Assembly (NCBI GenBank): GCA_002410935.1
Contig: DHPM01000007.1
Coordinates: 12,326-76,325, forward strand
From: Caryophanales bacterium UBA5364
GTDB lineage: Bacteria; Bacillota_I; Bacilli_A; RF39; UBA660
Direction of reading: 5' to 3'
DNA: 64,000 nt
This document shows, piece by piece, positions 3,818-46,659 of this stretch (position 1 is its first letter; each line of letters opens with the position of its first letter). Under the pieces are notes generated by a model. That model was not told where the DNA came from, searched no databases, and saw only the letters and a program-made list of their open reading frames with translations. Position numbers and translations under genes: made by a program.

Positions 3818-4606
3818 TTAATATTTGGTTAATCTTTTTTCAATATATAAAACTAAGTAGTACATGACAGCAGCTATAATACATAAAATAATTACTCCAG
3901 CCATCACTAAGTGTAAATTAAATACTTGTGATCCATACATAATTAAATAACCAATACCTTGTTTTGATACTAAGAATTCCCCCATAATAACACCAATTAA
4001 AGACATACTAATATTTATTTTTAAAGTACTAATAATGGTCGAAAAACTACTAGGTAATAATAACTTAAAATATATTTGTTTCTTAGTCGCTCTAAATGAT
4101 TGCATTAATTTTAATTTGATAGGATTAACATTATTAAAACCTTGAAATATATCAATAATAGTAATGATAACGGAAATTAATAAGGCCATTACAATAATTG
4201 AATCCATTGAAGCTCCAACCCAAATTATAATAATAGGTCCTAATGCAACCTTTGGTAAACTATTTAAAATAGTTAAATAAGGATCCAGAACTTTAGCGAT
4301 AAATTTATTCCACCACAATATTGTCGCAACAATAATTCCAATAATAGTTCCTAATATAAAACTAATTAGTGTTTCATATACAGTAATGAAAATATGATTG
4401 TATAAATTATGGGCCTTATGCAAGCCTATAATTGTTTTCATTACATCTCTAGGACTTGATGAAATAAAGGTGTTAATTAATTCGAAATCAGCTAGTAGTT
4501 GCCATAAAGCAATGAATAAGATAATAATTGAAAATTGTGACAATCTAATAAAAAGGTTCGTTCGCTTAATTTTCTTTAAATACTTTATGTGTTCTAAGCT
4601 ATACAT
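3818..4606 (-). CDS. NitT/TauT-type ABC transporter permease
   Basis: Inner-membrane subunit of an ABC importer (BPD_transp_1 family), 262 aa from ATG at 4606, with about six membrane segments. The cytoplasmic coupling loop is around residues 155-175 (DIFQGFNNVNPIKLKLMQSF), like SsuC/TauC/ThiX proteins. ATG 4606 is preferred to TTG 4615 because a GGAAAG ribosome site lies about 10 bases before it. It overlaps by 8 bases the stop codon of the C-terminal ATPase fragment, and its partner genes lie 12 kb away at 16.8-18.4 kb beyond an insertion. It is therefore probably cut off from the operon promoter. The substrate is unknown; thiamine-precursor-like importers look similar. Confidence 0.88.
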   Translation of the reverse strand: MYSLEHIKYLKKIKRTNLFIRLSQFSIIILFIALWQLLADFELINTFISSSPRDVMKTIIGLHKAHNLYNHIFITVYETLISFILGTIIGIIVATILWWNKFIAKVLDPYLTILNSLPKVALGPIIIIWVGASMDSIIVMALLISVIITIIDIFQGFNNVNPIKLKLMQSFRATKKQIYFKLLLPSSFSTIISTLKINISMSLIGVIMGEFLVSKQGIGYLIMYGSQVFNLHLVMAGVIILCIIAAVMYYLVLYIEKRLTKY

Positions 4607-4772
4607 GGTAATCAATCTCTTTCCATATTAAGTCATAATAATAAGCGAATTCTTTAGCCTTACGATTGTTAATTGGAGTTGTTTTATCAGTTAATTCAAT
4701 ATTATATATCTTTTTTATAGTCGCGGGCCTTTTAGATAATATGATAATACGGTCTGCCATACTTATAGCTTC
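4599..4772 (-). pseudogene. C-terminal fragment of ABC ATPase, separated by insertion
   Basis: The minus strand reads in frame EAISMADRIIILSKRPATIK and continues to a TAG at 4599, about 57 residues. This is the part that normally follows the H-loop in NitT/TauT-type ATPases. The missing first 193 codons are at 16826-17403 on the same strand. Joined at GAAGC (minus-strand 4772-4768 and 16830-16826) the halves give 747 bases, 249 codons with stop, the usual family length. An ATG at 4778 could start a 59-residue peptide, but the codons before the junction are unrelated to ATPase sequence. Confidence 0.9.
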
Positions 4773-4795
4773 ACTCATGGATTTAAAATGTATGA
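4750..4795. other. Left attachment junction (attL) of the element
   Basis: ATPase C-terminal codons end and foreign sequence begins at GCTTC (4768-4772). On the element side the arm includes ATTTAAAATGTAT, an imperfect mirror of the arm at the right end. Exact crossover bases cannot be fixed beyond the 5-bp identity. Confidence 0.7.
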
Positions 4796-4847
4796 CAATT
4801 TAGTTAAAAAAAATAAATCATGTCATAGGATTAACTAAGAGGTGATT

Positions 4848-4973
4848 ATGAATATGGAAAAGATAAAATTAACGAAGGAACAACAACAAAGAATAGTTTC
4901 TTTTTTCTTAAAAACATCAGTTCCAAGAATAATAAGTTCAATCAATAATAAATGTGATAAAAATGATAAATAA
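4848..4973 (+). CDS. Small 41-aa protein upstream of recombinase
   Basis: Starts MNMEKIKLTKEQQQRIVSFF and ends in a polar, lysine- and asparagine-rich tail; the middle contains LKTSVPRII. A strong ribosome site (AAGAGGTG) lies 4 bases before the ATG. It overlaps the recombinase start by 11 bases, so the two are likely made together. From memory, similar short proteins often precede serine recombinases in clostridial elements. A role such as accessory or directionality factor is only a guess. Confidence 0.75.
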   Translation: MNMEKIKLTKEQQQRIVSFFLKTSVPRIISSINNKCDKNDK

Positions 4974-6465
4974 AATATACGTAGGTATTTATGTTAGAGT
5001 ATCTACTGAGGAACAAAAAGAGTATGGTTATTCAATTCCCCAACAAATAGATTTGTTAACAAAGTTGGCTGATAAAAATAATTGGAGTATATATAAAATA
5101 TATAATGATGCTGGAATAAGTGGCAAGAATACAGAAGATAGACCAATGCTCAAAGCATTATTAAATGATGTAAAAAACAATCAAATTAGTAAAGTTTTAA
5201 TTACAAAACTAGATAGACTATCAAGAAATGTAATTGATACTGCAACCTTATTAAATATATTTAATAATTTTAACTGTGAATTGATTGACTATAGCGGAAG
5301 GAAAATTGAGTCAGATAACCCTAGTGATTGGTTATTTACGATTATTCAAAGTGCCTTTGGTCAATATGAAAGAAAAGCAATTATTAGTCGTATTAAAGAT
5401 GGGTTTGCAGGTAAAGTTAAGATGGGAAAGTCAATCTGTAGTTCAACCCCTCCATATGGTTATAACCGGGAAAAGGGGTGTAGTGTATTATCGATTAATG
5501 AAGAAGAAGCAGCTGTTGTAAAACAAATTTATAACATGTATCTTGATGGTTATTCATTAACAAATATTGCTAGATTTCTTAATGCTTCTAAAATAGCGAC
5601 TAAACGTTCAGGGCAAGTTATTAATGGAAAAAAAGTAATTGCTCGTTGGACACCAAAAACCGTTAAATTAATATTAACTAATTCAACCTATATTGGAAAA
5701 GTCAGATATCACTTAAATCAAAAAGATTATTATGAATGTGATGGCGAACATTTACCACTCATTGATCTTAAAATATATAACCAAGTCCAAGAAAAACATA
5801 TCAAGGCAAGGAATACCTCAAAGACTAATAAACCAACGGAAGATGTTTATTTTTGTGGAACATTGGTTTGTAGCAAGTGTCATACTAAACTAACGACTCA
5901 GCGGACAATTAAATATAATAAAAATAAGGAACCAAAGGTGTTCTATGGATATCGTTGTCGTAATAGAGAATTGGGGTTATGTGATGGTATTGGAATGAGC
6001 CATAAAAAGGTCGAAGAAGCCTTTTTAAAATATCTTGATAAAATAGAGCGTATGATGAAATTTAATCATTTTGATATAAGCATGACTGATAATAATAAGG
6101 AAATTGAAGTTAAAGAATTAAAAAGAGTAATTAATAAAGTAAAAGATAAAAAGAAAGAAATTATGCAATTATTTATGGAAGATACTATTACTAATAAACA
6201 AATGCAATATATGATAAAAGAAATAGATATTAAAAATAGAATACTAAGAGAGCAATTAACTAAATTAGAAAGGCGCTTGATATTAGATAATAATATTATT
6301 AGTGATAATCTAACTACTAATTTTAAAGAACATTGGTGTTGGTTAACTAATAAAGAAAAACTTGAATTTTTAAATCAATTTATAGAATATATAATTATAA
6401 AAAATGAAAATAATAATAAAAAGGGTAATTCAGTAAGTATTTTAAGTGTTAAATTATATGACTAA
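4963..6465 (+). CDS. Large serine recombinase (site-specific integrase)
   Basis: 500 aa from ATG 4963 (a GTG lies 9 bases earlier). The N-terminal resolvase domain begins GIYVRVSTEEQ with the catalytic serine, and continues with LDRLSRN and a FGQYERK segment. A recombinase domain follows (YGYNREKG to about residue 290), then a zinc ribbon near residues 295-345 with cysteine pairs (CGTLVCSKC and YRCRNRELGLC) and a lysine-rich coiled coil to the end. This is the architecture of integrases that catalyse directional insertion between attP and attB. It lies next to the left junction, as expected for the enzyme that moved the 12-kb unit. Confidence 0.95.
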   Translation: MINKIYVGIYVRVSTEEQKEYGYSIPQQIDLLTKLADKNNWSIYKIYNDAGISGKNTEDRPMLKALLNDVKNNQISKVLITKLDRLSRNVIDTATLLNIFNNFNCELIDYSGRKIESDNPSDWLFTIIQSAFGQYERKAIISRIKDGFAGKVKMGKSICSSTPPYGYNREKGCSVLSINEEEAAVVKQIYNMYLDGYSLTNIARFLNASKIATKRSGQVINGKKVIARWTPKTVKLILTNSTYIGKVRYHLNQKDYYECDGEHLPLIDLKIYNQVQEKHIKARNTSKTNKPTEDVYFCGTLVCSKCHTKLTTQRTIKYNKNKEPKVFYGYRCRNRELGLCDGIGMSHKKVEEAFLKYLDKIERMMKFNHFDISMTDNNKEIEVKELKRVINKVKDKKKEIMQLFMEDTITNKQMQYMIKEIDIKNRILREQLTKLERRLILDNNIISDNLTTNFKEHWCWLTNKEKLEFLNQFIEYIIIKNENNNKKGNSVSILSVKLYD

Positions 6466-6563
6466 TATGCTAATACTAACTTTGCGTCAAGTTTTAATTT
6501 TTTAATTATTATGATATACTATATAAGAGTAATTATATAAATAGAATTGATGGTGGTCTAAAT

Positions 6564-9500
6564 ATGATAGTTAGTAATGAGTTTCGTAAAATTAGAAAAC
6601 ATTATAATAAATTAATAAAAATGATTAATAACCATTTTTTTGTGGGTATAATCAATGAATGGATAATAGATAATTATTATTTATTACTTGAACAAAAAGG
6701 AACGATAAAACGATTTGTTAAAGATAAAAAATTATATATTTATACGACTAAATATTTTGATATGTATAAAGTTTTTAAAGACATTTTAGATAAGTATAAT
6801 TATAAAATTAATGAAAAAATAATTATTAAAGAGGTTCTTGATTATCAAAAGAGATCAGGTTACAATTTAAAATATAAAGAATTATCAATAATACCTTTAG
6901 TTATTAAAACTTTATTATTAAAAGAAGTCGCAATTATTTGTGACCAAGAATCAACTAAGTTAAAAGATAAAAAAGAAGTAAAGAAAATAATAAATGAATT
7001 AAAAGTAGAGTTATTAAATAATGAAATTATATCACTTGAAGATATGATTGATTTAAATAAGACTTCTGATTATGCTATTGTTTATTTTAATGAACAGCTT
7101 AAGGAGTTAGGAGTACACTCTAATTTAATTTTTAAACAATTTAATTGCCTATTAGAAAAAAATAATAGGGTTATGCTTGATGTTATTAATGATGTTCATT
7201 TAAAGAACACGGAATCTAATATTTTGATTAATAACATTTTTTTAAGCCTTAAAGAGACTAATCTATTTGTTATGGAGAATATTTATGAACAAACTAATGA
7301 TGTTGAAAAGTTACTTCAAGAAGATGATTTATATTCTTCAATGACTTTAGAAACAAAGACTTTAATTCGTCAACACCTATTAAAAAGAGCAAGAAAAGAA
7401 AAAGTTACTGCTGACTTCTTAGTTAAAGACATCATGGATGATTATGGAAACATAAGTAAAGGTATAGCTAAAGCGAAATCAAGAAAACCATTTAAGGTTT
7501 ATGTTTATATAGGTTGTATCTTGTTATTAACAATTATCTTTAGTTACTACTTATCAAGTTATTTAACAAGTTATCGACTAGTTGGATTTTTAGTATTACT
7601 AATTCCTATTAGTGAGTTAGTTATTATTGTTATTCAAAAAATATTTTTGAAATTCTTTAGACCCCAACCTCTACCAAAATTAAATTTTTCTAAAGGGATA
7701 CCATCAAATCATAAAACTATGGTTGTTATCCCAACTATTATCAAAAATGAAGAGAAAATTAGGGAAGTTTTCAAGAGTTTAGAAAAATATTATTTAATTA
7801 ATAGAACTAAGAATTTATATTTCACTTTATTAGGTGATACTTTTGAAAATAAAGAAGAAGAACATGAAAATGATTCCAAAATTGTTAGTTTTGGTGTGTC
7901 AGAAGTTGAAAGACTAAACCAAAAATATGGAAAAAATATTTTCAATTTTATTTATCGTCGCCGTAAATACAATGAGGGTGAAGGTACTTGGCTAGGATTC
8001 GAAAGAAAAAGAGGGGCACTATTACACTTTAATGATCTATTATTAGGTAATATGACTGAATCAGAACAAGAAGAATGGTTTAAAGTTCATACTTTCCATA
8101 ATTTTCATCATAAAATTAAATATGTTATTACTTTAGATGTTGATACTGAACTAGGAATTGGTAGTGCCTTAAAACTAGTCGGAACAATGGCTCATCCATT
8201 AAATAGACCAGTTTTAAATGAGGAAAAAAATAAGGTAATTGCAGGTTATGGTATTTTACAACCAAGAATTAGTTTAGAAGTAGAAGCTAGTAATAAGTCA
8301 TTATTTTCTCAAATTTATGCTGGTGTTGGTGGATTTGACCCATATAGTAGTCTTTATCCTAATTTTTATCAAGATGCTTTTAATGAAGGTACTTTTTATG
8401 GAAAGGGAATATATGATTTAGAAGTCTATCAACAAGTTTTAAAAAATCGCTTTCCTAATAATTTAATTTTAAGTCATGACTTGGTAGAAGGCAATTATCT
8501 TCATGCAGGTAACGTGAGTGATGTTGACTTAGTAGATGGTTTTCCGTCTAAGTTTTTAGTCGATGCTTCAAGACGATCAAGATGGGCTCGCGGTGACATG
8601 CAAATAATTGGCTGGTTAGGTAATAAGGTTAAAAATGTTAATCAAGAAAAGGAAAATAATCCTATTACTTTATTAGGTAAATGGAAAATTTTTGATAATA
8701 TTAGACGAGGTTTAGTATATATTTCATTATTATTAATCTTATTACTATCATTGAATAGTAATATTATATATCCTGGCTGGTGGTTATTATTTATTATTTT
8801 AATTTATATTCTACCAGTAATTATTCAAATAATTGATAACTTTGCTATTAGTAGAATAAGTTTTAGTTCATTAAAGTATTATCGCCTTTTAGTATTCGGT
8901 TATCGTGCACTAATATTAAGGGCAATAACAGAACTTGCAACAATTCCTTACAACGCTTATTTATATTTAAATTCTTTTATTCGTTCAATTTATCGAATGA
9001 CAATTAGTAAAAAACATTTACTAAATTGGGTAACAGCGGATGATGCAGCAAAACTAGTGAAAACTAATATGAGTAATACATTTAGACAATTTTGGATGAA
9101 TATTTTAGTGGCGGCACTATTAATCTTATCGGCATTCTTATCTAATGATTACCAAGTGTTAAAAGTAGTTGTAGCGTTTATCTTTATATTGGGTCCTGTG
9201 ATTACATACTTTTTAAGTAAAGATTTAATACTAAATAAAAACAAAATAAATAGTGAAGATACTGAATTTTTAAATGATTTAGCAGAAAAAACTTGGAACT
9301 TTTTTAAAGATAATCTTACACCTGAAAATAATTATCTTATTCCTGATAATTATCAAGAAAATAGAGATGTGAAAGCTGATGTTAAGACATCACCAACTAA
9401 TATTGGTTTATCGTTAGTATCAATTATTTCAGCAGCAGAATTAAACTTTATCACTAATAAAGAAGCAATTCGTTTATTAAAAGAAGTTATAACAACTATT

Positions 9501-12500
9501 AGAAAACTTGATAAATGGCATGGTCATTTATATAATTGGTACAATATTGAAACATTGGAAATTATGTATCCACACTTTATTTCAAGTGTGGATAGTGGGA
9601 ACTTAGTGGCTTCGTTAGTAGTTGCTAAAGGGTATTTAGAAAAACATAATCAAAATGAATTAGTAAAAATGGTTAAAGTATTAATAAATAAGACGGATTT
9701 TAGTTATTTATACACAACTACTGATGTTTTTAGTATTGGTTATCATGTTGATCAAGGTCGTATTGAACCATATAACTATAATAAGTTTATGAGTGAAAGC
9801 CGTATTATGAGTTATATAGCTATTGCTAAAGGAGATGTTCCTAGTAAGCACTGGTTAGGGCTTGATAAAACTTTGATTGCTTATAAAAACAAGAAGGGAT
9901 TATCTTCGTGGTCAGGTACATTCTTTGAATATTATATGCCGTTATTATTCATGCCTAGTTATGCTAATACGATTCTCGATGAAGGATATCATTTTGCATA
10001 TTATGCTCAAGTTGATTATATGAGACAAGTTAATCCTAATTATCCTTGGGGCATCTCAGAATCAGCTTATAACGAGTTAGATGATGCTCAAAATTATAAA
10101 TATAAAGCTTTTGGTATACCACAATTAAGACTACGTGAAGATACAAGTGAAAGAATTGTAATCTCACCATATAGTTCAGCTTTAGCAATTCAACTATTTC
10201 CTAAAGAAGTTATTAAAAATATTAAGAGATTTAAACCGCTTAATATGTTTGGTGAGTATGGCTTATATGAATCGTATGATTTTTCTGATGAAACACCAGT
10301 TATGTCATATTATGCTCATCACCAAGCAATGATTTTAGGTAGTTTAACTAACTTTTTAACGAATGGAAGTATTCAATCATATTTCTATTCAGATATTCGT
10401 AATCAAGCAATAAATATGTTAATTAAAGAGAAAGTACAATTAAAACCACATATTAATTATGAGACGATGAAATATAAGAAATATACCTATGAAAAGGAAC
10501 CTTTCGCTAATGATATTAGAGTTTTTAATCAAATGTCAAAATTGCCTGAATTGTCAGTATTATCAAATTCTCGTTATAGTGTAATTATTGATGATCGTGG
10601 AAACGGATATAGTAAGTATGATCAAATTCGCTTAAATAGATATCGTAAAGTAACCGAAAGAGATTATGGGCAATTTGTCTATATTAAAGATTTACAAACA
10701 AATAAGGTTTGGTCAAATACTTATGCTCCAATGAATATTAAGCCACGTAAATATGAAATTGTGTATGCTTTAGATAATATTAAATTTGTTAGAGCAGATA
10801 AAGATGTTATTACGACTACTGAAATTGTTGTAACTAAATCACATAATGCTGAGATTAGAAAAATAACATTAAAAAATACTAGTAATAAAGATAAGAAGTT
10901 AGAACTAACGACTTATACTGAACCAATTCTCGGATTGAATGATGATGATATTGGACATCCTGTTTTCAACAACATGTTTGTTTATAGTGAATACGATGAA
11001 AAAACTGACTCAATTATTATGCGTCGTAATTTAAGAAATTCAAATATTAATTATTATATGATTAGTCGTTTATTAATTAAAGATCCAATCACTGAATTTG
11101 AATATGAGACAAATCGTGATAATTTTATAGGTAGGGGGCGTAATACTGATAACCCAATTGCCTTACACAAAAAATTAGGTAACTTTGTAGGAACGACATT
11201 AGATCCTATCATTAGTTTAAGGAATAAGATTATAATACCTAAAAACAGTGAAAAAACAGTTTATTTAATTACAGGTTTTGGAAAGTCTAAGGAACATGTT
11301 TTAAATATTGTTAGAACTTATTCAAATAAGCAAGTTATTAATGAAAAAGGATTTGAAACCTCTATTATTATGAGTAATGCAACAAACAAGATGGTTAATA
11401 TGAGTGCAAATGATCGTAGATTATATAACACTATGCTTAACTATTTATTACAAACTAATTATATTGTTGTAAGCGATGAAGTCGTCAATAATTTAACTAA
11501 AAATACTTTAAATCAAACTAGTTTATGGGGAATGGGAATATCTGGTGATCGACCAATTATTTTATTAGATATTGCTGACTTAAGTGATTTAAGTTTAGTA
11601 AAAGAGTTATTACATGCATTTGAATATTATAAAAGTAAAGCTATTTTTGTCGATTTAGTTATCATAAATAGTGAAAATGAAGAACATGCAAAAGTATTAG
11701 CAGAAGAAATCGAAAATGAAAAATATCATATGTATGCTATTAATAATTTCTTTAATACTCCAGGAACTATCTTTGTTATAGATAGAAAAACAATTAATGA
11801 AGATCAATATACCTTGTTGCATACAGTTGCAAGATTAAAAATTAAGAGTAGTCTTCATAATTCACTACAATATTATATTAATGAACTTCAAAAATTAAAT
11901 ACAGTTGAAACAAAGATTAATGAACAAGAAGTTCCTAGTTTACCAATTCCATATGATAAAAATAAAATTAAATATTTCAATGAGTTTGGTGGATTTATTA
12001 ATAATGGTAGGGATTACTTAATTGTAGAACCAAACACTCCAACTGCTTGGAGTAATGTTATTTCTAATAAAAACTTTGGTACCATTGTAACCAATAATAA
12101 TTGTGGTTTTACATATGCCCACAATAGTCGTGAATATAAATTAACCTCTTGGACGAATGACACCTTAGTTAATGATTATTCTGAAGGATTTAAAATAAAT
12201 GATAAAAAAATTAACTTTAGTCAAGTAAAATTTGGGTTTGGTTATAGTGAATTTATCGGTAACTTTAAACGAATTGATTTAAATTTAACACAATTTGTTG
12301 CTAAGAAAGATAACGTTAAATTTTATAAAATGACTTTAAAAAATAATGCTGCTCGTAAGCAACGAATTATTTTAAAATTTTGGCTTAACCCTAATTTAGG
12401 TTTTTCAGAAGAAAAAACAGGTCGTTATTTATTAAGTGAGTTTAATGATATAAATAACTACTTAAGTATTAGAAATGTTTATAGTCAAAAATTTAGTGAT

Positions 12501-14228
12501 TTATATGCTTATATGTCAAGTACTGAGAAGATTGAAAATGCTGTTCTTAATAATCTGTTATTTAAAGAGATTGAAGTAGATTTTTATTTAAATGAAAAAG
12601 AGGAAAAGGAAATAGCCTTCACTCTTGGTAGTGCATCTAAAGATGACTTAGATTCATTAGTAAAAAAATATCAAAGTATCGGTAAAATTAATCAAGAATT
12701 ACTTGATGTTAAAAACAATTGGAATGATGTTTTAAATGTTGTTCAAGTAAAAACGCCTGAAGATAGCTTTAATTATATGGTAAATGGATGGACACTTTAT
12801 CAAACACTTGCTTCTAGGCTTCAAGCACGTGCTGGATTCTATCAAGTAGGAGGAGCATTTGGATTTCGTGACCAATTACAAGATTCTATGAATGTATGTA
12901 GTATTAACCCAGATATCACTAGAAAACAAATTTTATTTAATGCAGCACACCAATTTGCCGAAGGAGACGTTCTTCACTGGTGGCATCCTAAATTAGATAT
13001 TGGACTTCGTTCGTTATATAAGGATGATTATTTATGGTTAATTTATGCTGTGTGTGAATACTTGAAAATAACTGAAGACTTTAGTATTTTAGATGAACAA
13101 GTACCATTTATTAAAGGTTTAAGTTTAGGACCTAATGAACATGAAAAATTAATTGATTATTCAGTAAGTGAAGAGTCATCATCAATTTATGAACGCTGTT
13201 TATTAATAATTGATAAAGTTATGAATGAACTTGGAACCAATGGGATACCACTAATGGGTGGTGGCGACTGGAATGACGGAATGAATAAAATAGGTGCTAA
13301 AGGTAAAGGAACTAGTGTTTGGTTAGGATTTTTCTCGCATCTATTGATCGAACAATTTATGGTTTATGCTGAAAAATATGATAGCAAGATTGATTTAAAG
13401 AAGTATCAAGACTTTAATATTAAATTAAGAAAATCATTAAGAAAAGTAGCATGGGATGGGAAATATTATTTAAGAGCTTTCTTTGATAATGGTCGTCCTG
13501 TTGGGTCACACTTAAATGATGAATGTGCCATTGATTTATTATCACAAAGTTTTGCCATTTTATCAGGAATAGCTGATGAAAAACAAATAGAATCAATGCT
13601 AGATGAAGTAGAAACTAAATTAGTTGATCGTGACTTAAAAATCATTAAATTATTAACACCACCTTTTGCTAATAGTAAAGATTATCCAGGTTATATTATG
13701 GATTATCCAAAAGGAATTCGTGAAAATGGTGGACAATATACACATTCTGTTGCATGGTATATTCAGGCTTTATTAAAACTAGGTAAAAATGATTTAGCTT
13801 TTGAACATTATCAAATGGTTAATCCAATTAATAGGACTAAGACCAAAGAGGATGCCCTTAAATATAAAGTCGAACCATATGTCTTTGTGGCGGACATTTA
13901 TAGTAATGAAAGCTTTGCTGGACAAGGTGGCTGGAGCTGGTATACAGGTACAAGTGGATGGTTTTATAAAGTTGCATTAGTAGAAATCCTTGGTTTTAAT
14001 TTAAGAGGTAATAAACTTTATATTACTCCTAATGTTCCAACTACTTGGACCAATTATGAAATTACTTATCAGTATAAAGAAACTATTTATGAAATTAAAG
14101 TTGAATTAAAAAATATTGCTGATGAGATAATATTAGATAATCAAGGTGTCAAAACTAATTATATTGAATTAGTAAATGATAAGAAAAAACATTATGTAAT
14201 AGTAAAGATTGGAGAAAAAAATGATTAA
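6564..14228 (+). CDS. Cyclic beta-1,2-glucan synthase-like protein (GT84-GH94)
   Basis: A giant 2554-aa membrane enzyme. Residues 1-310 are unassigned; membrane helices lie near 311-362, 715-760 and 845-885. The GT84 catalytic part includes VITLDVDTELGIG (about 521), LSHDLVEG (about 635) and RRSRWARGD (about 669). A glucoamylase-like segment follows (about 940-1200, GTFFEYYMP, YPWGISES). Then come GH94 phosphorylase domains with HWWHPKLDIGLRS (about 2138), the catalytic GGGDWNDGMN (about 2232) and ENGGQYTHSVAWY. Such proteins polymerise glucose from UDP-glucose and cyclise the chain, with phosphorolysis trimming its length. The order matches NdvB/ChvB although it is about 10% shorter. It is the lead cargo gene of the element and overlaps pgi by 8 bases. 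Confidence 0.88.
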   Translation: MIVSNEFRKIRKHYNKLIKMINNHFFVGIINEWIIDNYYLLLEQKGTIKRFVKDKKLYIYTTKYFDMYKVFKDILDKYNYKINEKIIIKEVLDYQKRSGYNLKYKELSIIPLVIKTLLLKEVAIICDQESTKLKDKKEVKKIINELKVELLNNEIISLEDMIDLNKTSDYAIVYFNEQLKELGVHSNLIFKQFNCLLEKNNRVMLDVINDVHLKNTESNILINNIFLSLKETNLFVMENIYEQTNDVEKLLQEDDLYSSMTLETKTLIRQHLLKRARKEKVTADFLVKDIMDDYGNISKGIAKAKSRKPFKVYVYIGCILLLTIIFSYYLSSYLTSYRLVGFLVLLIPISELVIIVIQKIFLKFFRPQPLPKLNFSKGIPSNHKTMVVIPTIIKNEEKIREVFKSLEKYYLINRTKNLYFTLLGDTFENKEEEHENDSKIVSFGVSEVERLNQKYGKNIFNFIYRRRKYNEGEGTWLGFERKRGALLHFNDLLLGNMTESEQEEWFKVHTFHNFHHKIKYVITLDVDTELGIGSALKLVGTMAHPLNRPVLNEEKNKVIAGYGILQPRISLEVEASNKSLFSQIYAGVGGFDPYSSLYPNFYQDAFNEGTFYGKGIYDLEVYQQVLKNRFPNNLILSHDLVEGNYLHAGNVSDVDLVDGFPSKFLVDASRRSRWARGDMQIIGWLGNKVKNVNQEKENNPITLLGKWKIFDNIRRGLVYISLLLILLLSLNSNIIYPGWWLLFIILIYILPVIIQIIDNFAISRISFSSLKYYRLLVFGYRALILRAITELATIPYNAYLYLNSFIRSIYRMTISKKHLLNWVTADDAAKLVKTNMSNTFRQFWMNILVAALLILSAFLSNDYQVLKVVVAFIFILGPVITYFLSKDLILNKNKINSEDTEFLNDLAEKTWNFFKDNLTPENNYLIPDNYQENRDVKADVKTSPTNIGLSLVSIISAAELNFITNKEAIRLLKEVITTIRKLDKWHGHLYNWYNIETLEIMYPHFISSVDSGNLVASLVVAKGYLEKHNQNELVKMVKVLINKTDFSYLYTTTDVFSIGYHVDQGRIEPYNYNKFMSESRIMSYIAIAKGDVPSKHWLGLDKTLIAYKNKKGLSSWSGTFFEYYMPLLFMPSYANTILDEGYHFAYYAQVDYMRQVNPNYPWGISESAYNELDDAQNYKYKAFGIPQLRLREDTSERIVISPYSSALAIQLFPKEVIKNIKRFKPLNMFGEYGLYESYDFSDETPVMSYYAHHQAMILGSLTNFLTNGSIQSYFYSDIRNQAINMLIKEKVQLKPHINYETMKYKKYTYEKEPFANDIRVFNQMSKLPELSVLSNSRYSVIIDDRGNGYSKYDQIRLNRYRKVTERDYGQFVYIKDLQTNKVWSNTYAPMNIKPRKYEIVYALDNIKFVRADKDVITTTEIVVTKSHNAEIRKITLKNTSNKDKKLELTTYTEPILGLNDDDIGHPVFNNMFVYSEYDEKTDSIIMRRNLRNSNINYYMISRLLIKDPITEFEYETNRDNFIGRGRNTDNPIALHKKLGNFVGTTLDPIISLRNKIIIPKNSEKTVYLITGFGKSKEHVLNIVRTYSNKQVINEKGFETSIIMSNATNKMVNMSANDRRLYNTMLNYLLQTNYIVVSDEVVNNLTKNTLNQTSLWGMGISGDRPIILLDIADLSDLSLVKELLHAFEYYKSKAIFVDLVIINSENEEHAKVLAEEIENEKYHMYAINNFFNTPGTIFVIDRKTINEDQYTLLHTVARLKIKSSLHNSLQYYINELQKLNTVETKINEQEVPSLPIPYDKNKIKYFNEFGGFINNGRDYLIVEPNTPTAWSNVISNKNFGTIVTNNNCGFTYAHNSREYKLTSWTNDTLVNDYSEGFKINDKKINFSQVKFGFGYSEFIGNFKRIDLNLTQFVAKKDNVKFYKMTLKNNAARKQRIILKFWLNPNLGFSEEKTGRYLLSEFNDINNYLSIRNVYSQKFSDLYAYMSSTEKIENAVLNNLLFKEIEVDFYLNEKEEKEIAFTLGSASKDDLDSLVKKYQSIGKINQELLDVKNNWNDVLNVVQVKTPEDSFNYMVNGWTLYQTLASRLQARAGFYQVGGAFGFRDQLQDSMNVCSINPDITRKQILFNAAHQFAEGDVLHWWHPKLDIGLRSLYKDDYLWLIYAVCEYLKITEDFSILDEQVPFIKGLSLGPNEHEKLIDYSVSEESSSIYERCLLIIDKVMNELGTNGIPLMGGGDWNDGMNKIGAKGKGTSVWLGFFSHLLIEQFMVYAEKYDSKIDLKKYQDFNIKLRKSLRKVAWDGKYYLRAFFDNGRPVGSHLNDECAIDLLSQSFAILSGIADEKQIESMLDEVETKLVDRDLKIIKLLTPPFANSKDYPGYIMDYPKGIRENGGQYTHSVAWYIQALLKLGKNDLAFEHYQMVNPINRTKTKEDALKYKVEPYVFVADIYSNESFAGQGGWSWYTGTSGWFYKVALVEILGFNLRGNKLYITPNVPTTWTNYEITYQYKETIYEIKVELKNIADEIILDNQGVKTNYIELVNDKKKHYVIVKIGEKND

Positions 14229-15423
14229 GTTTGATTTTAATACTTATATGAAAACATTATCTAATAAAACAGAATATAATCCTAAAATAGACGAAATAAC
14301 TCGTTTATTAGAAACAGGTACATCGATGAATGATTGGTATGATTTAGATAAATGTATTACACCTGATGTCATTGAAGACGTTATTAAGACAAGTAAAAAT
14401 ATTCGTGATAATTGTGATGTTTTTATTGTTATCGGAGTAGGTGGTTCATCTTTAGGAGCTAAAGCTATTACTGATGCCTTTAAGCCTTACTTAAAAAAGG
14501 ATAAACCAGAAATAATCTTTATAGGGCAATCACTATCATCTACTTACTTAACTGAGTTATTAGAGTACATTAGTGATAAAGAAATTATGATAAATGTAAT
14601 TTCTAAATCAGGAACAACTTTTGAAACTAATTTATATTTTGAATATTTATATAATGAATTATGTAAAATATATGATAAAGATGAACTTAATAAAAAGATT
14701 ATTATAACTACTGATGCTAAAGAAGGTATCCTTAGAGAATTAGTAAATAAAGAAGGTTATAAATCATTTGTTTTACCAAGTAATATTGGTGGACGTTATT
14801 CAGTAATGACAGTAGTTGGCCTTCTTCCTATTGCTGTTGCTGGTATTGACATTAATGAAATGATTCAAGGAGCAAAGTCTTTAGACAAAAAAATAGCATT
14901 TGATTATGCCGTTATTAGGGATCTTTTATATAAAGATGGAAAAATGATTGAATCATTTACTATTTATGAACCAAAATTACAATCATTTGTTGAATGGATT
15001 AAACAACTATTAGCTGAAACACAAGGAAAAGATGGTAAGGCAATATTCCCAGTTGCTACGCTTAATACTGGTGACTTACATTCTTTAGGTCAATATTACC
15101 AAGAAGGTAGTAAAATCTTATTTGAAACCGTCATTAATATTGAACATAGTATTGATGTTAATATACCTAAATATAATAAGAATTTAGATGATATTAATGC
15201 TATGGTTAGTAGACAAGTCGCTATTTCACATATGAAAAATACTACTTATAGTAACTATGTATCAATGGATACTTTAACTCCATTTAATATGGGCTTGTTA
15301 ATTTATTTCTTTGAAATAGCAGCAGCAGCAGGGGCTTACTTATTAGATGTTAATCCATTTGATCAACCAGGGGTAAATGAATATAAAAAATTAGTAACAA
15401 AGGAGCTAGATATTAATGATTAA
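14221..15423 (+). CDS. pgi: Glucose-6-phosphate isomerase
   Basis: Interconverts glucose-6-phosphate and fructose-6-phosphate. ATG 14221 is chosen because GGAG lies 6 bases before it; an upstream in-frame TTG at 14209 has no such site. The 400-aa protein is slightly short for the family but complete. It has IGVGGSSLGAKA, the SIS-type phosphate loop SKSGTTFETN, GGRYSVMTVVGLLPIA, QGKDGKAIFPV and NPFDQPGVNEYK. It overlaps the glucan synthase by 8 bases and the next gene by 8, so all three are one operon linking fructose-6-phosphate to glucose-1-phosphate supply. Confidence 0.95.
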   Translation: MIKFDFNTYMKTLSNKTEYNPKIDEITRLLETGTSMNDWYDLDKCITPDVIEDVIKTSKNIRDNCDVFIVIGVGGSSLGAKAITDAFKPYLKKDKPEIIFIGQSLSSTYLTELLEYISDKEIMINVISKSGTTFETNLYFEYLYNELCKIYDKDELNKKIIITTDAKEGILRELVNKEGYKSFVLPSNIGGRYSVMTVVGLLPIAVAGIDINEMIQGAKSLDKKIAFDYAVIRDLLYKDGKMIESFTIYEPKLQSFVEWIKQLLAETQGKDGKAIFPVATLNTGDLHSLGQYYQEGSKILFETVINIEHSIDVNIPKYNKNLDDINAMVSRQVAISHMKNTTYSNYVSMDTLTPFNMGLLIYFFEIAAAAGAYLLDVNPFDQPGVNEYKKLVTKELDIND

Positions 15424-16789
15424 AATAAACCCATTAATCTTTAGAGCTTATGACATAAGAGGAATATATCCAACTGATATTAATGAAGATAATACTTATA
15501 TATTAGGTCGTAGCTTTGGGACCTATATTAGTAAATTGGGCTTTACAGAAGCACTAATTGGTTATGATAACCGATTATCTTCTCCTGCCTTACGCGATTC
15601 ACTTATTAGTGGCATTACTAGTACAGGAATAAATGTTGTTGACTTAGGTTTAGTTACCACTCCAATGTTTTATTACGCTAGATACAATCTAAATATTTGG
15701 TCAGGGATTATGATTACAGCTAGTCATAATCCAAGTGATCATAATGGTTTTAAAATATCATTCACTGAAATTGGTAATGCCCTTGGAGAGGAAATTAAAG
15801 ACTTTTATAATTTCACTTTAAAGGGAGAATTTATTGATGGTAATGGTACCGTTAAAACTTATAATATTAAAGATAAGTATATGGAACTTATTAAGAGTTC
15901 GCTTAATTTTGGAGAAAAGAGATTAAAAATTGCTGTTGATTGTGGTAATGGGACAACATCTATTGTTATTAAAAAAATACTTGACCAATTACCAATTGAT
16001 TATAAATTAATGTATGCTGAAAGTGATCCAACCTTCCCTAATCATCATCCAGATCCTTCGGTACCAGATAATTTAAAGGATCTTCAAAAGGAAGTTATTG
16101 AATCAAATTGTGATTTAGGTATTGCTTTAGATGCTGATGGTGACCGAATAGGGATAGTTGATAACTTAGGAAATATTATTAGTAGTGACCTATATATGAT
16201 TGTTATGTATCGCTTCTTAAAAGATAAATTGGAGAATAAAACAGCTTTATATGATGTTAAATGTTCAAAATCATTAATTGATGAACTGGATAAACTAGGA
16301 TATAATCATATTATGAATCGAACTGGTAACTCGTACTTTTATCGTAAAATTAATCAAGATAATATTGGATTTGGTGGCGAGTATTCAGGACATATCTTCT
16401 TCAAAGATAGATTCCCAGGTTTTGATGATGGTATATACGCCGGACTTAGAATGGCTGAAGTGTTATCGGTAACCGGTAAAACAATCAGTGAGTTATTAGA
16501 AGGTATTAATCAATATTATTCAACACCTGAAATTAAGGTACCAGTTAAAGAAGAACATAAATTCCAAGTGATTGATGAGATAAAAGAATATTTAAATAAT
16601 AATCATCAACCATTTAAGGATATTGACGGAGTTAGAATTGAAAATGATGACTTTTGGGTATTGATAAGGGCATCTAATACAACTCCTTATCTAACTGTTC
16701 GTTTTGAAGCTAACACTGATTCATTATTAAATAGTATTCAAGAAAAGTATTTAGATATAATTAATAATATAATTCACAAGGATAATTAA
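15416..16789 (+). CDS. Phosphoglucomutase/phosphomannomutase
   Basis: Alpha-D-phosphohexomutase, 457 aa, most likely converting glucose-6-phosphate to glucose-1-phosphate for UDP-glucose synthesis. Four family elements are present: TASHNPSDHNGFK with the phosphoserine (about residue 102), the metal loop DADGDR (about 240), the sugar loop GGEYSGH (about 320) and the phosphate site RASNTTPYLTVRFEA near the end. The ManB/AlgC-like size leaves mannose and glucose substrates both possible; the neighbouring glucan synthase and pgi favour glucose. It is the last gene of the element, followed by a terminator. Confidence 0.92.
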   Translation: MIKINPLIFRAYDIRGIYPTDINEDNTYILGRSFGTYISKLGFTEALIGYDNRLSSPALRDSLISGITSTGINVVDLGLVTTPMFYYARYNLNIWSGIMITASHNPSDHNGFKISFTEIGNALGEEIKDFYNFTLKGEFIDGNGTVKTYNIKDKYMELIKSSLNFGEKRLKIAVDCGNGTTSIVIKKILDQLPIDYKLMYAESDPTFPNHHPDPSVPDNLKDLQKEVIESNCDLGIALDADGDRIGIVDNLGNIISSDLYMIVMYRFLKDKLENKTALYDVKCSKSLIDELDKLGYNHIMNRTGNSYFYRKINQDNIGFGGEYSGHIFFKDRFPGFDDGIYAGLRMAEVLSVTGKTISELLEGINQYYSTPEIKVPVKEEHKFQVIDEIKEYLNNNHQPFKDIDGVRIENDDFWVLIRASNTTPYLTVRFEANTDSLLNSIQEKYLDIINNIIHKDN

Positions 16790-16806
16790 TAATTATCCTT
16801 TTTTGT
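16778..16806 (+). terminator. Terminator at the right end of the element
   Basis: AAGGATAATTA / TAATTATCCTT followed by a T-run, overlapping the pgm stop codon. It closes the cargo operon about 20 bases before the right junction. Confidence 0.85.
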
Positions 16807-17403
16807 TATACTTATTTGGTATATTGCTTCTGCTAGGTCATGTGTGACCATAATAACGCTTTTACCCTCGCTCTTTATGATTTTAAAAACATCATCAGAG
16901 ACTGCTAATCTAGTTTGATAATCTAAAGCTGAAAAGGGTTCATCAAGCAATAAAATATCTGGTTTGGTAGCTAGTGTTCTAATTAAAGCTACCCTTTGAC
17001 GCATTCCACCTGATAAATTCGGTGGATAACTATTTATAAATTTTGATAAGCCATAGGTATTTAAAAGTTTTAAGACATAGTTTTTAGTTTCATCATTTAA
17101 GTTATGATTTATTTCTAGTCCTAGTAAACAGTTATCTAAAACAGTACGCCATTCAAATAACGAATCTTGCTGAAGCATGTAACCAATTTTAGTATTCTCA
17201 CGGAATTTAATATCACCATCTGTTTTTTCTTCTAACCCACAAAGAATCGAAAGAATGGTACTTTTTCCACAACCACTAGGACCTACAATAGCAACAAATT
17301 CACCATCTGACATAGTAAAAGAAAAATTATCAACAGCTAATGTTTCATCTCTACTAGTGTGATAAATTTTCCTTAAATTCTCAATCTTTAAAATTTTTTT
17401 CAT
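16786..17403 (-). pseudogene. ABC transporter ATPase, N-terminal part truncated by insertion
   Basis: NitT/TauT-type ATP-binding subunit. It keeps Walker A GPSGCGKST (residues 41-49), a Q-loop (MLQQDSLFEWR), signature LSGGMRQRVAL, Walker B ILLLDEPFSALD and H-loop MVTHD. After HDLAEA (residue 193) the natural sequence stops and about 12 codons from the element lead to a stop, giving 205 aa instead of about 248. The rest is at 4599-4772. The core nucleotide-binding motifs are intact, so residual function cannot be excluded. It shares an ATGA overlap with the binding-protein gene upstream. Confidence 0.92.
16807..16850. other. Right attachment junction (attR) of the element
   Basis: GCTTC at 16826-16830 separates the element arm (ATACTTATTTGG at 16809-16820) from ATPase codons for HDLAEA. 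Joining this element arm to the one at 4773-4795 gives a 44-base attP-like site with imperfect inverted ends (ATACnTnTT), centred on the core. Confidence 0.68.
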
Positions 17404-18389
17404 TTTTTAGCGTAAGTATTATTTACTAATTTGTCATATGGCACATTTTTCTCTAATTCATTTGCTGCTTTCATAATGGTTTGAACGTGGTTAAAGTTAT
17501 CTTCTTCAATATATGTCGTATCAAACCATGAATCGATACTTTTATATCTTTCCACAATTTTAACTAAGTCATTCATTGAAGTATCTGGGAAATAATCGAT
17601 AATTACTTCAGCAATTTTTTCCGGTTTATTATTATGAACATAATCTAATCCTTTTTGAATACCTTTTACAAATCCTTCAATTACTTCAGGATTATTTTCA
17701 ATATAACTTTTTCTTGCATTATAAGCAGTATATGGTACAACCCCACCTAGTTCACCAACTGATGCGACAACATATCCATAACCTTGTTTTTCAATGCTTA
17801 AGGCATTAGGTTCAAATAAAGTTACAAAGTCACCAATACCACCAATAAATGCACCACTCATGGCAGCAAAAGCAATACTTGTATCAATATCTAAATCTTT
17901 TACCGGATGGATACCATGTTCTTTTAATGCCCATTCAAAGGTCATTTCTGGCATACCACCTTTTCTTCCCCCAATTACACTTTTCCCTTTCAAATCATTT
18001 AAAGTAAAATTATCATATTTCTTTCTTGAAACTAAGAAACTACCATCACGTTTAGTTAAACCAGCAAAATTAACTAGATAATCCTTTTCTCCTTGTTGAT
18101 AAACATAAATTGAAGCTTCACTACCACAAAAACCAATATTAACATCACCTGATAAAACAGCAGCTGAAACCTTATCAGCACCAGGTACTAAAATAAGTTC
18201 TACATCTAGTCCTTCATCTTCAAAATATCCTAGACTATGAGCAACATATTGTGGAGCATAAAAAATACTATGAGTTACTTCTGCAACCTTAACATCTTTT
18301 AAGTCACTTTTTTCTTTATTAAAAAAGAGAAAATATCCACCAACTAAAACAACAATTAAAGCAGGAATAACGTATATATATGCTTTCAA
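17400..18389 (-). CDS. NMT1/ThiY-like ABC transporter substrate-binding protein
   Basis: Extracytoplasmic solute receptor of a NitT/TauT importer, about 329 aa. The start is best placed at TTG 18389, since AAAGGAG lies 8 bases upstream of it and inside the longer frame from ATG 18410. A single N-terminal hydrophobic helix (YVIPALIVVLVGGYFLFF) has no lipobox cysteine, so it is probably a membrane-anchored receptor. The binding fold begins VAEVTHSIFYAPQYVAHSLG, with GADKVSAAVLSGDVNIGF and GSEASIYVYQQG next. The ligand is not evident; relatives bind thiamine precursors, riboflavin or sulfonates, and no TPP riboswitch was seen upstream. First gene of the operon split by the insertion. Confidence 0.88.
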   Translation of the reverse strand: MKAYIYVIPALIVVLVGGYFLFFNKEKSDLKDVKVAEVTHSIFYAPQYVAHSLGYFEDEGLDVELILVPGADKVSAAVLSGDVNIGFCGSEASIYVYQQGEKDYLVNFAGLTKRDGSFLVSRKKYDNFTLNDLKGKSVIGGRKGGMPEMTFEWALKEHGIHPVKDLDIDTSIAFAAMSGAFIGGIGDFVTLFEPNALSIEKQGYGYVVASVGELGGVVPYTAYNARKSYIENNPEVIEGFVKGIQKGLDYVHNNKPEKIAEVIIDYFPDTSMNDLVKIVERYKSIDSWFDTTYIEEDNFNHVQTIMKAANELEKNVPYDKLVNNTYAKK

Positions 18390-18490
18390 AATAAACTCTC
18401 CTTTCATCATTTTATTATATTCAAATAGTTATTTATGGTGCTGGGAATATAGTCGCAAGTTATGTTATAATATTACTAGGCGGTGATAAA

Positions 18491-18694
18491 ATGGATCAAT
18501 CAATTAAAAAAAGCACAGCTGAAGATTATGAGAATGAATATTCCAAAGAAAATATTATTAATGAAAAAGTAATTAAAGTCACACACGATGCTGATTCGGA
18601 TCATAATATCGTTAAAACAGTTAAAGAAGTAACTTACAAAAATGGCGAAACGGTAAAAGAGATTGAAAAAGAATATTTCAAAAAAGAAGAATAA
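18491..18694 (+). CDS. Small hypothetical protein, 67 aa
   Basis: Highly charged, probably soluble protein with a beta-rich middle (VIKVTHDADSDHNIVKTVKE) and a lysine/glutamate-rich end. No membrane segment, cysteine or recognised motif. A GGCGGTGA ribosome site precedes the ATG, a TATAAT (about 18467) suggests its own promoter, and a strong terminator follows, so it looks like a real monocistronic gene. Function unknown. Confidence 0.7.
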   Translation: MDQSIKKSTAEDYENEYSKENIINEKVIKVTHDADSDHNIVKTVKEVTYKNGETVKEIEKEYFKKEE

Positions 18695-18698
18695 TAGT

Positions 18699-18727
18699 AA
18701 AAGGGATTGATATACCAATCCCTTTTT
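18699..18727 (+). terminator. Terminator after the 67-aa gene
   Basis: AAGGGATTG / CAATCCCTT with a short loop and T-run. Confidence 0.88.
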
Positions 18728-18757
18728 TATGGTATAATACATAAAGGTGGTGATCTT

Positions 18758-18973
18758 ATGTCCGAAGAAAACATTGATAAAGCGATTACAGGAGCAACTT
18801 CTAATATTGATCTTGAGTATGTCGATTCATTAAGCAAAGAAGAATTAGGTCTTCTAAAAGAAGCTTTAAGAAGAGGTCGTAAATCAGAGAGTTTATTATA
18901 TAATATAGTAAAACTATATGCCAATAAAAAAGATATGAAAGAAGAGAAAAAAAGCGATGGTAGTAAAAAGTAA
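18758..18973 (+). CDS. Probable Fic antitoxin (VbhA-like), 71 aa
   Basis: 71-aa protein from ATG 18758, with a TATAAT at 18733 and AAAGGTGGTGAT ribosome site. A helix (IDKAITGATSNIDLEYVDSL) is followed by SKEELGLLKEALRRG and a lysine-rich tail. Length, helix pattern and position fit the separate antitoxins of class I Fic enzymes. The canonical inhibitory motif S/T-x3-E-G/N is not cleanly present; the closest is SNIDLEY or SLSKEE. It overlaps the fic gene by 17 bases, which strongly suggests a toxin-antitoxin pair. Confidence 0.62.
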   Translation: MSEENIDKAITGATSNIDLEYVDSLSKEELGLLKEALRRGRKSESLLYNIVKLYANKKDMKEEKKSDGSKK

Positions 18974-45894: not shown

Positions 45895-46659
45895 ATGGAA
45901 AAAATTCGGGTTTTAATGGTCGATGATAATACTAGTTTAGTGGGAATGGTTAAGGAATATTTTAAAAATCATGAAAATATTGAATTAGTATTGACCGCAA
46001 GTGATGGGGTAGAGGGGATTGCTGTAATTGAAAAGGAAGTAAATAATTATGATATAATTATTTTAGATTTAATTATGCCTAATAAAGATGGCATTTATGT
46101 CTTAGAAGAAATGAAAAAACGTAATATTAGAAAACGTGTTATTGTTTCAACAAGTTATAATGCAGCAGAAGTAATTAGAGAAGTTGCAGAATATGGTGTT
46201 AATTATTATATTCTAAAACCATTTGATCTTCATGATTTAGAAAAGAGGATTTTAGAGTCATTTAAGGTTACAGATAATAAGAGCATTGATATTCACCATA
46301 ATAACTTACAAATATCAATTACCAAAATACTTCATGAATTAGGAATACCTTCACACATTAAAGGATATCAATATATCCGAGACGGGATTGAAATTATCTA
46401 TCGTAAACCTGAAACAATTGGTGGTATTACTAAGGAATTATATCCAGAATTAGCTAGTAAATATAGTACAACTGTATCGAGAGTAGAAAGAGCAATTAGA
46501 CATGCTATAGAAGTTAGCTGGAATCGTGGGAACTGGGCATTAATGGAAGAAATATTTGGTCATAGTGTTGATATTGATAAAGCAAAACCAACTAATTCTG
46601 AATTTATTGTAACGATTGCTGATAAGTTAAAATTAGAATTTAATAGAATAGGCGGATAG
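45895..46659 (+). CDS. spo0A: Sporulation master regulator Spo0A
   Basis: 254-aa response regulator. The receiver domain (residues 1-120) has the acidic pair D10-D11 (VDDN), phospho-acceptor D58 ([11 protein letters not shown]) and the lysine in ILKPFD. After a linker, the Spo0A DNA-binding domain (about 140-254) includes [38 protein letters not shown] and the recognition helix [19 protein letters not shown]. It switches on sporulation genes when phosphorylated. Tandem 0A boxes lie upstream and a candidate kinase gene is at 59.2 kb. Confidence 0.97.

Follow-up and report, generated by a model that had tools for sequence, protein, structure and literature searches.

What does it mean that a transporter gene stops in mid-sequence and resumes 12 kb further along the same strand? 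The question arises in a 64,000-nucleotide stretch of DNA (hereafter the window; contig DHPM01000007.1, positions 12,326 to 76,325 of the forward strand) from Caryophanales bacterium UBA5364, a metagenome-assembled genome (MAG) of 565 kb that is 52% complete. Here, an element of 12,058 bp is inserted within an ABC ATPase gene. The first-pass annotation, made from the letters alone, described a 12-kb recombinase element whose excision would rebuild the ATPase exactly, and comparison with relatives agrees with it on both counts. The interruption pattern is wider than described there, this element being one of a large set. To judge from the sequences compared, it is site-specific and mobile, and its loss would restore the target gene. 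We think it probable that the element, mobile and non-viral, is gene-intervening in the manner of skin and gin, linked to sporulation and excising in the terminal mother cell.

The element and the ATPase gene that it splits

The operon lies on the minus strand and runs from the binding protein (18410-17400) through the N-terminal part of the ATPase (from 17403), the element and the C-terminal part of the ATPase to the permease. The features that define the insertion are as follows:

3818..4615, minus strand: ABC permease (BPD_transp_1, Pfam 1.1e-22), operon gene 3; its orthologue in genome G001 adjoins the intact ATPase
4599..4767, minus strand: C-terminal part of the split ATPase, with no start codon of its own; 93% identity to the equivalent stretch of the G001 ATPase
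4768..4772, no strand: left attachment core GCTTC
16826..16830, no strand: right attachment core GCTTC
16786..17403, minus strand: open reading frame (ORF) of the ATPase N-part; the true gene is 16826-17403, the remaining 12 codons being element
17400..18410, minus strand: substrate-binding protein (NMT1/SsuA-like), operon gene 1

As the first-pass annotation had noted, the N-part matches its family through HDLAEA, where the gene breaks at residue 193 of 248, and the missing C-part (ISMADR and onward to the TAG at 4599) lies 12 kb off and overlaps the permease ORF (4615-3818). Both junctions share GCTTC on the plus strand (GAAGC on the minus strand; 4768-4772 and 16826-16830), and the two parts joined at this core are in frame and yield 248 aa, with 235/248 residues identical to the intact ATPase of G001. 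This genome of the same genus (locus L109, JAQUFI010000014.1) has the empty site, an uninterrupted 248-aa ATPase gene, such as the earlier reading called for; intact relatives exist alongside split ones.

The same element occupies the same site in G374, which belongs to another genus, and the protein cluster of the window ATPase (P0001, 99% identical) consists of two contigs, with a representative that is likewise split. G001 and G032 have an intact operon, with the genes for glucose-6-phosphate isomerase (PGI), a phosphomutase and a GH94 protein outside it on the permease side, the GH94 gene being whole in G032 and cut by a contig end in G001. We rejected plain vertical inheritance of the window element and prefer gain and loss, because the identities of operon and element to the two G374 copies disagree and because G001 and G032 are without the element at this site. 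An ATPase pseudogene or a misassembled arrangement, as might be feared in a MAG only 52% complete, is highly improbable and already contradicted by the data: G374 repeats the arrangement, with collinearity over 14.7 kb and 77% identity at the DNA level, related recombinases occur at this one site 17 times, and the split pieces have no in-frame stop before the junction.

The element itself holds five features, all on the plus strand:

4848..4973, plus strand: 41-aa micro-ORF directly upstream of the recombinase, candidate directionality factor or accessory protein
4954..6465, plus strand: serine recombinase, 503 aa, with Resolvase and Recombinase domains and a zinc ribbon slightly below cut-off
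6564..14228, plus strand: GH94 protein, 2554 aa, cargo (Pfam PF17167, PF06165, PF10091)
14209..15423, plus strand: PGI, cargo
15416..16789, plus strand: phosphoglucomutase/phosphomannomutase (PGM), cargo

The recombinase begins about 180 bases within the element, counted from the left core. Its best NCBIfam match is XisF at 158 bits (cut-off 375), and its Ccr-type matches are likewise below cut-off. The four large ORFs (recombinase, GH94, PGI and PGM) include no phage structural or conjugation genes, and a virus or plasmid circle was rejected as the source, recombinase identity in IMG/VR reaching at most 36% among the matches listed (best 80). The 2554-aa GH94 protein resembles cyclic glucan synthase. 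The element's phosphomutase seems to be the host's only copy, since each of the six genomes searched (6/6) has a single match, an argument that is weak for the window genome at 52% completeness.

We propose the 41-aa micro-protein as a candidate directionality factor. A motif search found an FF-x-x-TS-x-PR-like micro-ORF upstream of the recombinase in 11/11 members of the window recombinase clade and in 6/9 of a clade found at a carboxypeptidase gene (below), in 0/6 of the other clade at the same ATPase site, and at none of the recombinases of the ATPase-139, permease-208 and binding-protein-150 and -205 sites. The micro-ORF weakly matches PHROG 30936 (8.1e-5), a phage family of unknown function. 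As to what the operon transports, a thiamine/hydroxymethylpyrimidine (HMP) transporter with a riboswitch was considered and rejected, with no Rfam match in the window or in the loci of seven relatives.

Recurrent interruption of one operon

The binding protein is encoded in 45 of 59 family genomes, the window genome included, and 14 are without it. Among the 45 carriers, the operon is interrupted in 21, uninterrupted in 20 and in neither class in four (G015, G053, G021 and G046), where contig ends lie near a site. The 21 take in G017, with one half on each of two contigs that both stop at the same residue, G042, whose second half is inverted, G005, which has an additional intact copy, and cases with the other half outside the fetched stretch. 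Before counting, we dropped L063, L169 and L131 (whose flags were alignment breaks or small gaps), L051 (on the contig of L109) and 22 distant loci, and we retained the near-duplicates L144/L148 and L145/L077 (97.4%). The parts of the open-licence literature that we searched yielded no report of interruption in this operon or lineage.

Interruptions fall at ATPase residues ~193 (the window site) and ~139, at binding-protein residues ~78, ~108, ~150 and ~205, and at permease residue ~208, with two interruptions in at least G009, G041, G055, G016, G146, G321, G350 and L161. Related recombinases at the ATPase-193 site number 17, in 16 genomes; both halves of the ATPase are in view in 12 cases and one half in five (L210, L211, L212, L216 and L217). 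Of these 16 genomes, 12 were found with the recombinase as bait and were kept out of the prevalence count.

That serine recombinases inserted these units, as the first-pass annotation had inferred for the window, finds support in the empty sites, the in-frame joints and the site-specific recombinase groups. Every one of the 28 intragenic gaps for which a single contig holds both halves contains a recombinase ORF; the eight intergenic gaps between binding protein and ATPase contain none. At the joint, the longest identical run measures at least 5 bp in 20/28 intragenic gaps in register versus 9.1% of off-register controls. Read by eye, the join picked by the script is clean in 22 of the 28 and not clean in six (L077, L080, L187, L209 and the binding-protein gaps of L213 and G041), although at L209 the sequences themselves display a clean joint despite the script's pick. 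The site labels change nine times over a maximum-likelihood tree built from 57 recombinases, which is the minimum possible, compared with a shuffled mean of 36.0. The ATPase-139, permease-208, binding-protein-205 and carboxypeptidase sites each form a strongly supported single group; the single groups of ATPase-193 (67/45) and binding-protein-150 (34/49) have weak support. Two origins for the ATPase-193 recombinases were considered and rejected, because with L216 labelled the group forms one side of a branch, weakly supported.

Split and intact states both occur in close lineages, as three pairs attest: P0006 (195 aa, split) and P0003 (248 aa, intact) are 99.5% identical over 192 residues, the split/intact pair P0019 and P0022 is 99.0% identical, and the binding-protein gene is unbroken in L145 and split in its 97.4% relative L077. 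More broadly, 24/120 ATPase homologues among the matches listed (7,969 found among 8,000 scored) are no longer than 230 aa, and most, though not all, of these short homologues stop directly past the H-loop.

Two pairs of hosts share 52.2% (L187/L085) and 52.9% (L059/L164) identity in their operon proteins and have recombinases that are 96.8% identical; the elements therefore cross genera and reach the same landing place. Their cargo varies. The element in the binding-protein gene of G003 (L071, 8080-14927) carries the arginine deiminase pathway, whose window counterparts, identified by eye, lie beside the operon and outside the element; among the other operon elements, that of G009 has an agmatine-type pathway and that of L148 a heavy-metal ATPase, and nuclease or RhuM-like proteins also occur. 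Collagen-like GPTG-repeat proteins occur in the ATPase-193 elements of L095 and L214 (Pfam) and of L213 and L224 (by eye), one of them with a weak BclA_C match under its cut-off.

Such transfer between genera and such adaptive-looking cargo (arginine deiminase in G003, agmatine-type in G009, the metal ATPase in L148) would also be expected if the operon were a dispensable place in which cassettes land by a logic like that of the staphylococcal cassette chromosome, the transporter being lost and excision serving transfer only. The absence of the binding protein from 14/59 family genomes and the slightly weaker conservation of split copies in one region of the ATPase (below) point the same way. 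We regard this account as unlikely, though it is the most serious competitor, in that a single operon is hit at several sites, all within coding sequence, and the split pieces are without internal stops before the junction; the promoter and a second interrupted gene described below also tell against it.

Three loci display unusual arrangements. In G042 (L093), the ATPase C-part and the permease are inverted relative to the N-part, as though the recombinase had inverted rather than excised. L110 has the ATPase N-part twice (12779-13186 and 18236-18955; 97.5% identity over 445 bp), and the first of the two stops close to the residue-139 site. In L215 a second serine recombinase of another group (10413-12440) is nested within the ATPase-193 element of G335.

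Sporulation and the condition of the split copies

Two features of the window bear on when the operon would be read:

18413..18439, minus strand: sigma-K-like promoter (AC, 16-base spacer, AATATAATA)
45895..46659, plus strand: Spo0A, sporulation master regulator (TIGR02875, 270 bits, cut-off 200), host context

The pattern AC-N16/17-[CA]ATAnnnTA, which follows the sigma-K consensus, occurs upstream of the operon in 92/128 loci (mononucleotide-shuffle mean 3.4) and in 129/1,646 ORF upstream regions of the same loci, operon genes included. Among 37 family genomes, the window genome included in each case, SpoIVA is found in 34, Spo0A_C in 35 (34 above cut-off) and a sigma-K/sigma-E-type factor with E<1e-75 in 35. 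The best sigma-K match of the window genome scores 295.2 bits, just below the curated cut-off of 298.65, which 15/37 family genomes pass and the B. subtilis control fails. G006 and G034, without SpoIVA and without a strong sigma match, are also without the binding protein. In 23 class-level genomes, a binding-protein match at E<1e-80 is present in 4/8 with SpoIVA above cut-off and in 0/15 without. The operon resembles ytlA-ytlC-ytlD of B. subtilis, to which it may be orthologous; ytlA, ytlC and ytlD are listed as sigma-K genes in B. subtilis (PMC3416734), and ytlC is listed as sigma-K-dependent in C. difficile (PMC3789822).

Interruption extends to other genes. SpoIVA is split at residue 121 in 2/37 family genomes, G003 (L343/L344) and G022 (L345/L346). 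In G022 a serine recombinase adjoins the SpoIVA C-part, and in G003 two contigs end at the split, sharing TGG; a search for the G003 spoIVA element did not find it. In G031 and G011, the SpoIVA N-ends are incomplete, at or near contig ends. A sister clade is formed by nine related recombinases located away from the operon (L105, L106, L218-L223 and L228). In 8/9, a D-Ala-D-Ala carboxypeptidase gene stands directly upstream and its match stops in the same region, with the C-part present at two loci, one of which has both parts. As controls, the phosphomutase is near full length in 28/29 genomes with a match, one partial and none in two pieces, and a recombinase-split PcrA was found in 0 of 34 family genomes with a match (37 searched). 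PcrA is on two contigs in G019, and in G029:C50:5041-8208 the helicase gene has an in-frame insert of ~1 kb within a single frame of 1058 aa, perhaps an intein.

The interruption of spoIVA, a sporulation gene, and the sigma-K-like promoter are the further points that disfavor cassette landing without programmed excision. The promoter also bears on phase variation, in which reversible excision in a growing population would turn a nutrient transporter on in a sub-population with no tie to sporulation. The near-identical split and intact alleles would suit it, as would the contigs that break exactly at the split site in G017 (binding protein, overlap GG only) and in G003 (spoIVA), as mixed states might cause; these breaks are suggestive only, and a recombinase matching the G017 split was not found. 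The promoter and the host spore genes point instead to the mother cell, and in G374 the element holds the only phosphomutase match, so that excision in growing cells would risk its loss. We judge phase variation improbable.

We favor programmed excision in the mother cell, by the following steps. Comparison shows, by fixed site, empty site and matching recombinase group, that a circle entered a fixed attB, placed at the ATPase H-loop of a ytlA-ytlC-ytlD-like operon, through the action of a serine recombinase. The likeness of promoter and regulon suggests that a sigma-K-type promoter would drive this operon late in the mother cell. As that cell dies, the recombinase, probably with a directionality factor such as the 41-aa micro-protein, would excise the element and rebuild the ATPase; the forespore would retain it, and the PGI and PGM cargo would stay in the lineage. 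Since only a terminal cell would require the gene, its interruption would cost almost nothing, which would explain how several recombinase groups came to settle in one operon. The suggestion of sporulation-linked excision in the first-pass annotation therefore gains backing from the spore genes, the promoter, the ytlACD likeness and the spoIVA and carboxypeptidase interruptions, and excision itself stands as a prediction.

It is possible, if rather short of probable, that the whole family of uncultured Bacilli undergoes multi-locus programmed rearrangement in its mother cells. Several elements (up to two per ytlACD-like operon, others in spoIVA and the carboxypeptidase gene) would then have to excise before the genes work, and the spore line would keep them, now as carriers of host metabolic genes (phosphomutase and PGI, arginine or agmatine pathways).

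The condition of the split copies would fit either recent insertion or regular restoration. No split piece has an internal stop before the junction, stops occurring only at or past it (L056, L077) or at the extreme end of the binding protein (L095). Departures from conserved residues at ATPase 200-248 are 0.071 in 193-split copies versus 0.057 in intact copies (p=0.28). Split and intact copies are similarly conserved in most other regions. At the 193 site, median ratios of non-synonymous to synonymous differences (pN/pS) are alike, at 0.372 versus 0.385 for the C-part and 0.424 versus 0.426 for the permease. They are somewhat higher in the 139-split group: 0.506 versus 0.426 for the permease, 0.422 versus 0.385 for the C-part, 0.343 versus 0.261 for residues 145-190 and 0.498 versus 0.428 for the binding protein. 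Synonymous differences are high (pS mostly 0.5-0.8), and these tests do not separate recent insertion from restored function. Gross decay is thus absent, with perhaps slight relaxation.

Several observations weigh against programmed excision. No excision junction or circle was seen in the window genome. Departures at ATPase 146-188, recomputed on full pieces only, are 0.033 in 55 intact operons and rise to 0.077 in 25 operons split elsewhere (p=0.007) and to 0.071 in nine copies split at 139 (p=0.054), an excess that could reflect some relaxed selection or the sampling of more distant genomes; alignment overrun was rejected as the source of the excess at 143-190, which persists without it. Recent insertion would also account for the missing stops. 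Dyad symmetry of attP reaches p<0.01 in 6/9 elements tested at the ATPase-193 site, and that of the window itself is not significant (14/26, p=0.16). The carboxypeptidase matched general DacA/DacD/PBP3 models and was not typed as a spore enzyme. G010, G014, G025 and G035 have SpoIVA yet no binding protein, and the operon is therefore dispensable to some carriers of spore genes, at least four of the 14 of 59 family genomes that are without it. The YtlACD likeness draws on gene set, promoter and distribution rather than on direct comparison with the B. subtilis proteins, and sporulation of the host is predicted from its genes only.

Relation to known elements and significance

To our knowledge, the known sporulation-linked interruption elements are single cases in cultured Bacillus and Clostridium species. 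Of those that the consulted portions of the literature describe, the closest is gin, a non-viral element that splits the late mother-cell gene gerE of Bacillus cereus ATCC10987 and has three serine recombinases, a short common core, inverted-repeat att sites, a restored gene product and demonstrated excision (PMC5595907). The window element is likewise non-viral, splits a gene by means of a serine recombinase, and has a short common core and a restorable product. It differs in having one recombinase and metabolic cargo, another target gene, uncultured hosts and an excision that is predicted. A large serine recombinase and a split host gene rebuilt during sporulation are also features of SP-beta in spsM of B. 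subtilis (PMC4191935) and of skin in C. difficile (PMC5025042). Those elements are prophages or prophage-like, whereas the four large ORFs here include no phage genes.

Heterocyst-forming cyanobacteria have many interruption elements in several genes of specialised cells, with the recombinase as a marker and excision established (PMC4874684). The number of elements and of interrupted genes is a shared trait, and the window recombinase finds its best NCBIfam match in XisF, but phylum and cell type differ, the nearest named relatives here being MAGs labelled Bacilli, Tenericutes or Erysipelotrichaceae. The staphylococcal cassette chromosome inserts at the 3' end of rlmH and leaves the gene unbroken, whereas here coding genes are broken mid-gene, the ATPase at residue 193 of 248. 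Serine recombinases (CcrA/B/C), mobile cassettes, adaptive cargo and a fixed attB are what it has in common with the present set (in part from PMC5595907).

In this family, at least five recombinase groups, each bound to its site, interrupt a single conserved operon in about half of the genomes that have it. They make up a natural series in which to ask why elements come to reside in the genes of terminal cells. The series bears as well on the co-evolution of recombinases with their targets and on developmental genome rearrangement in unstudied carriers of spore genes, and it offers, as a resource, many recombinase/attB pairs.

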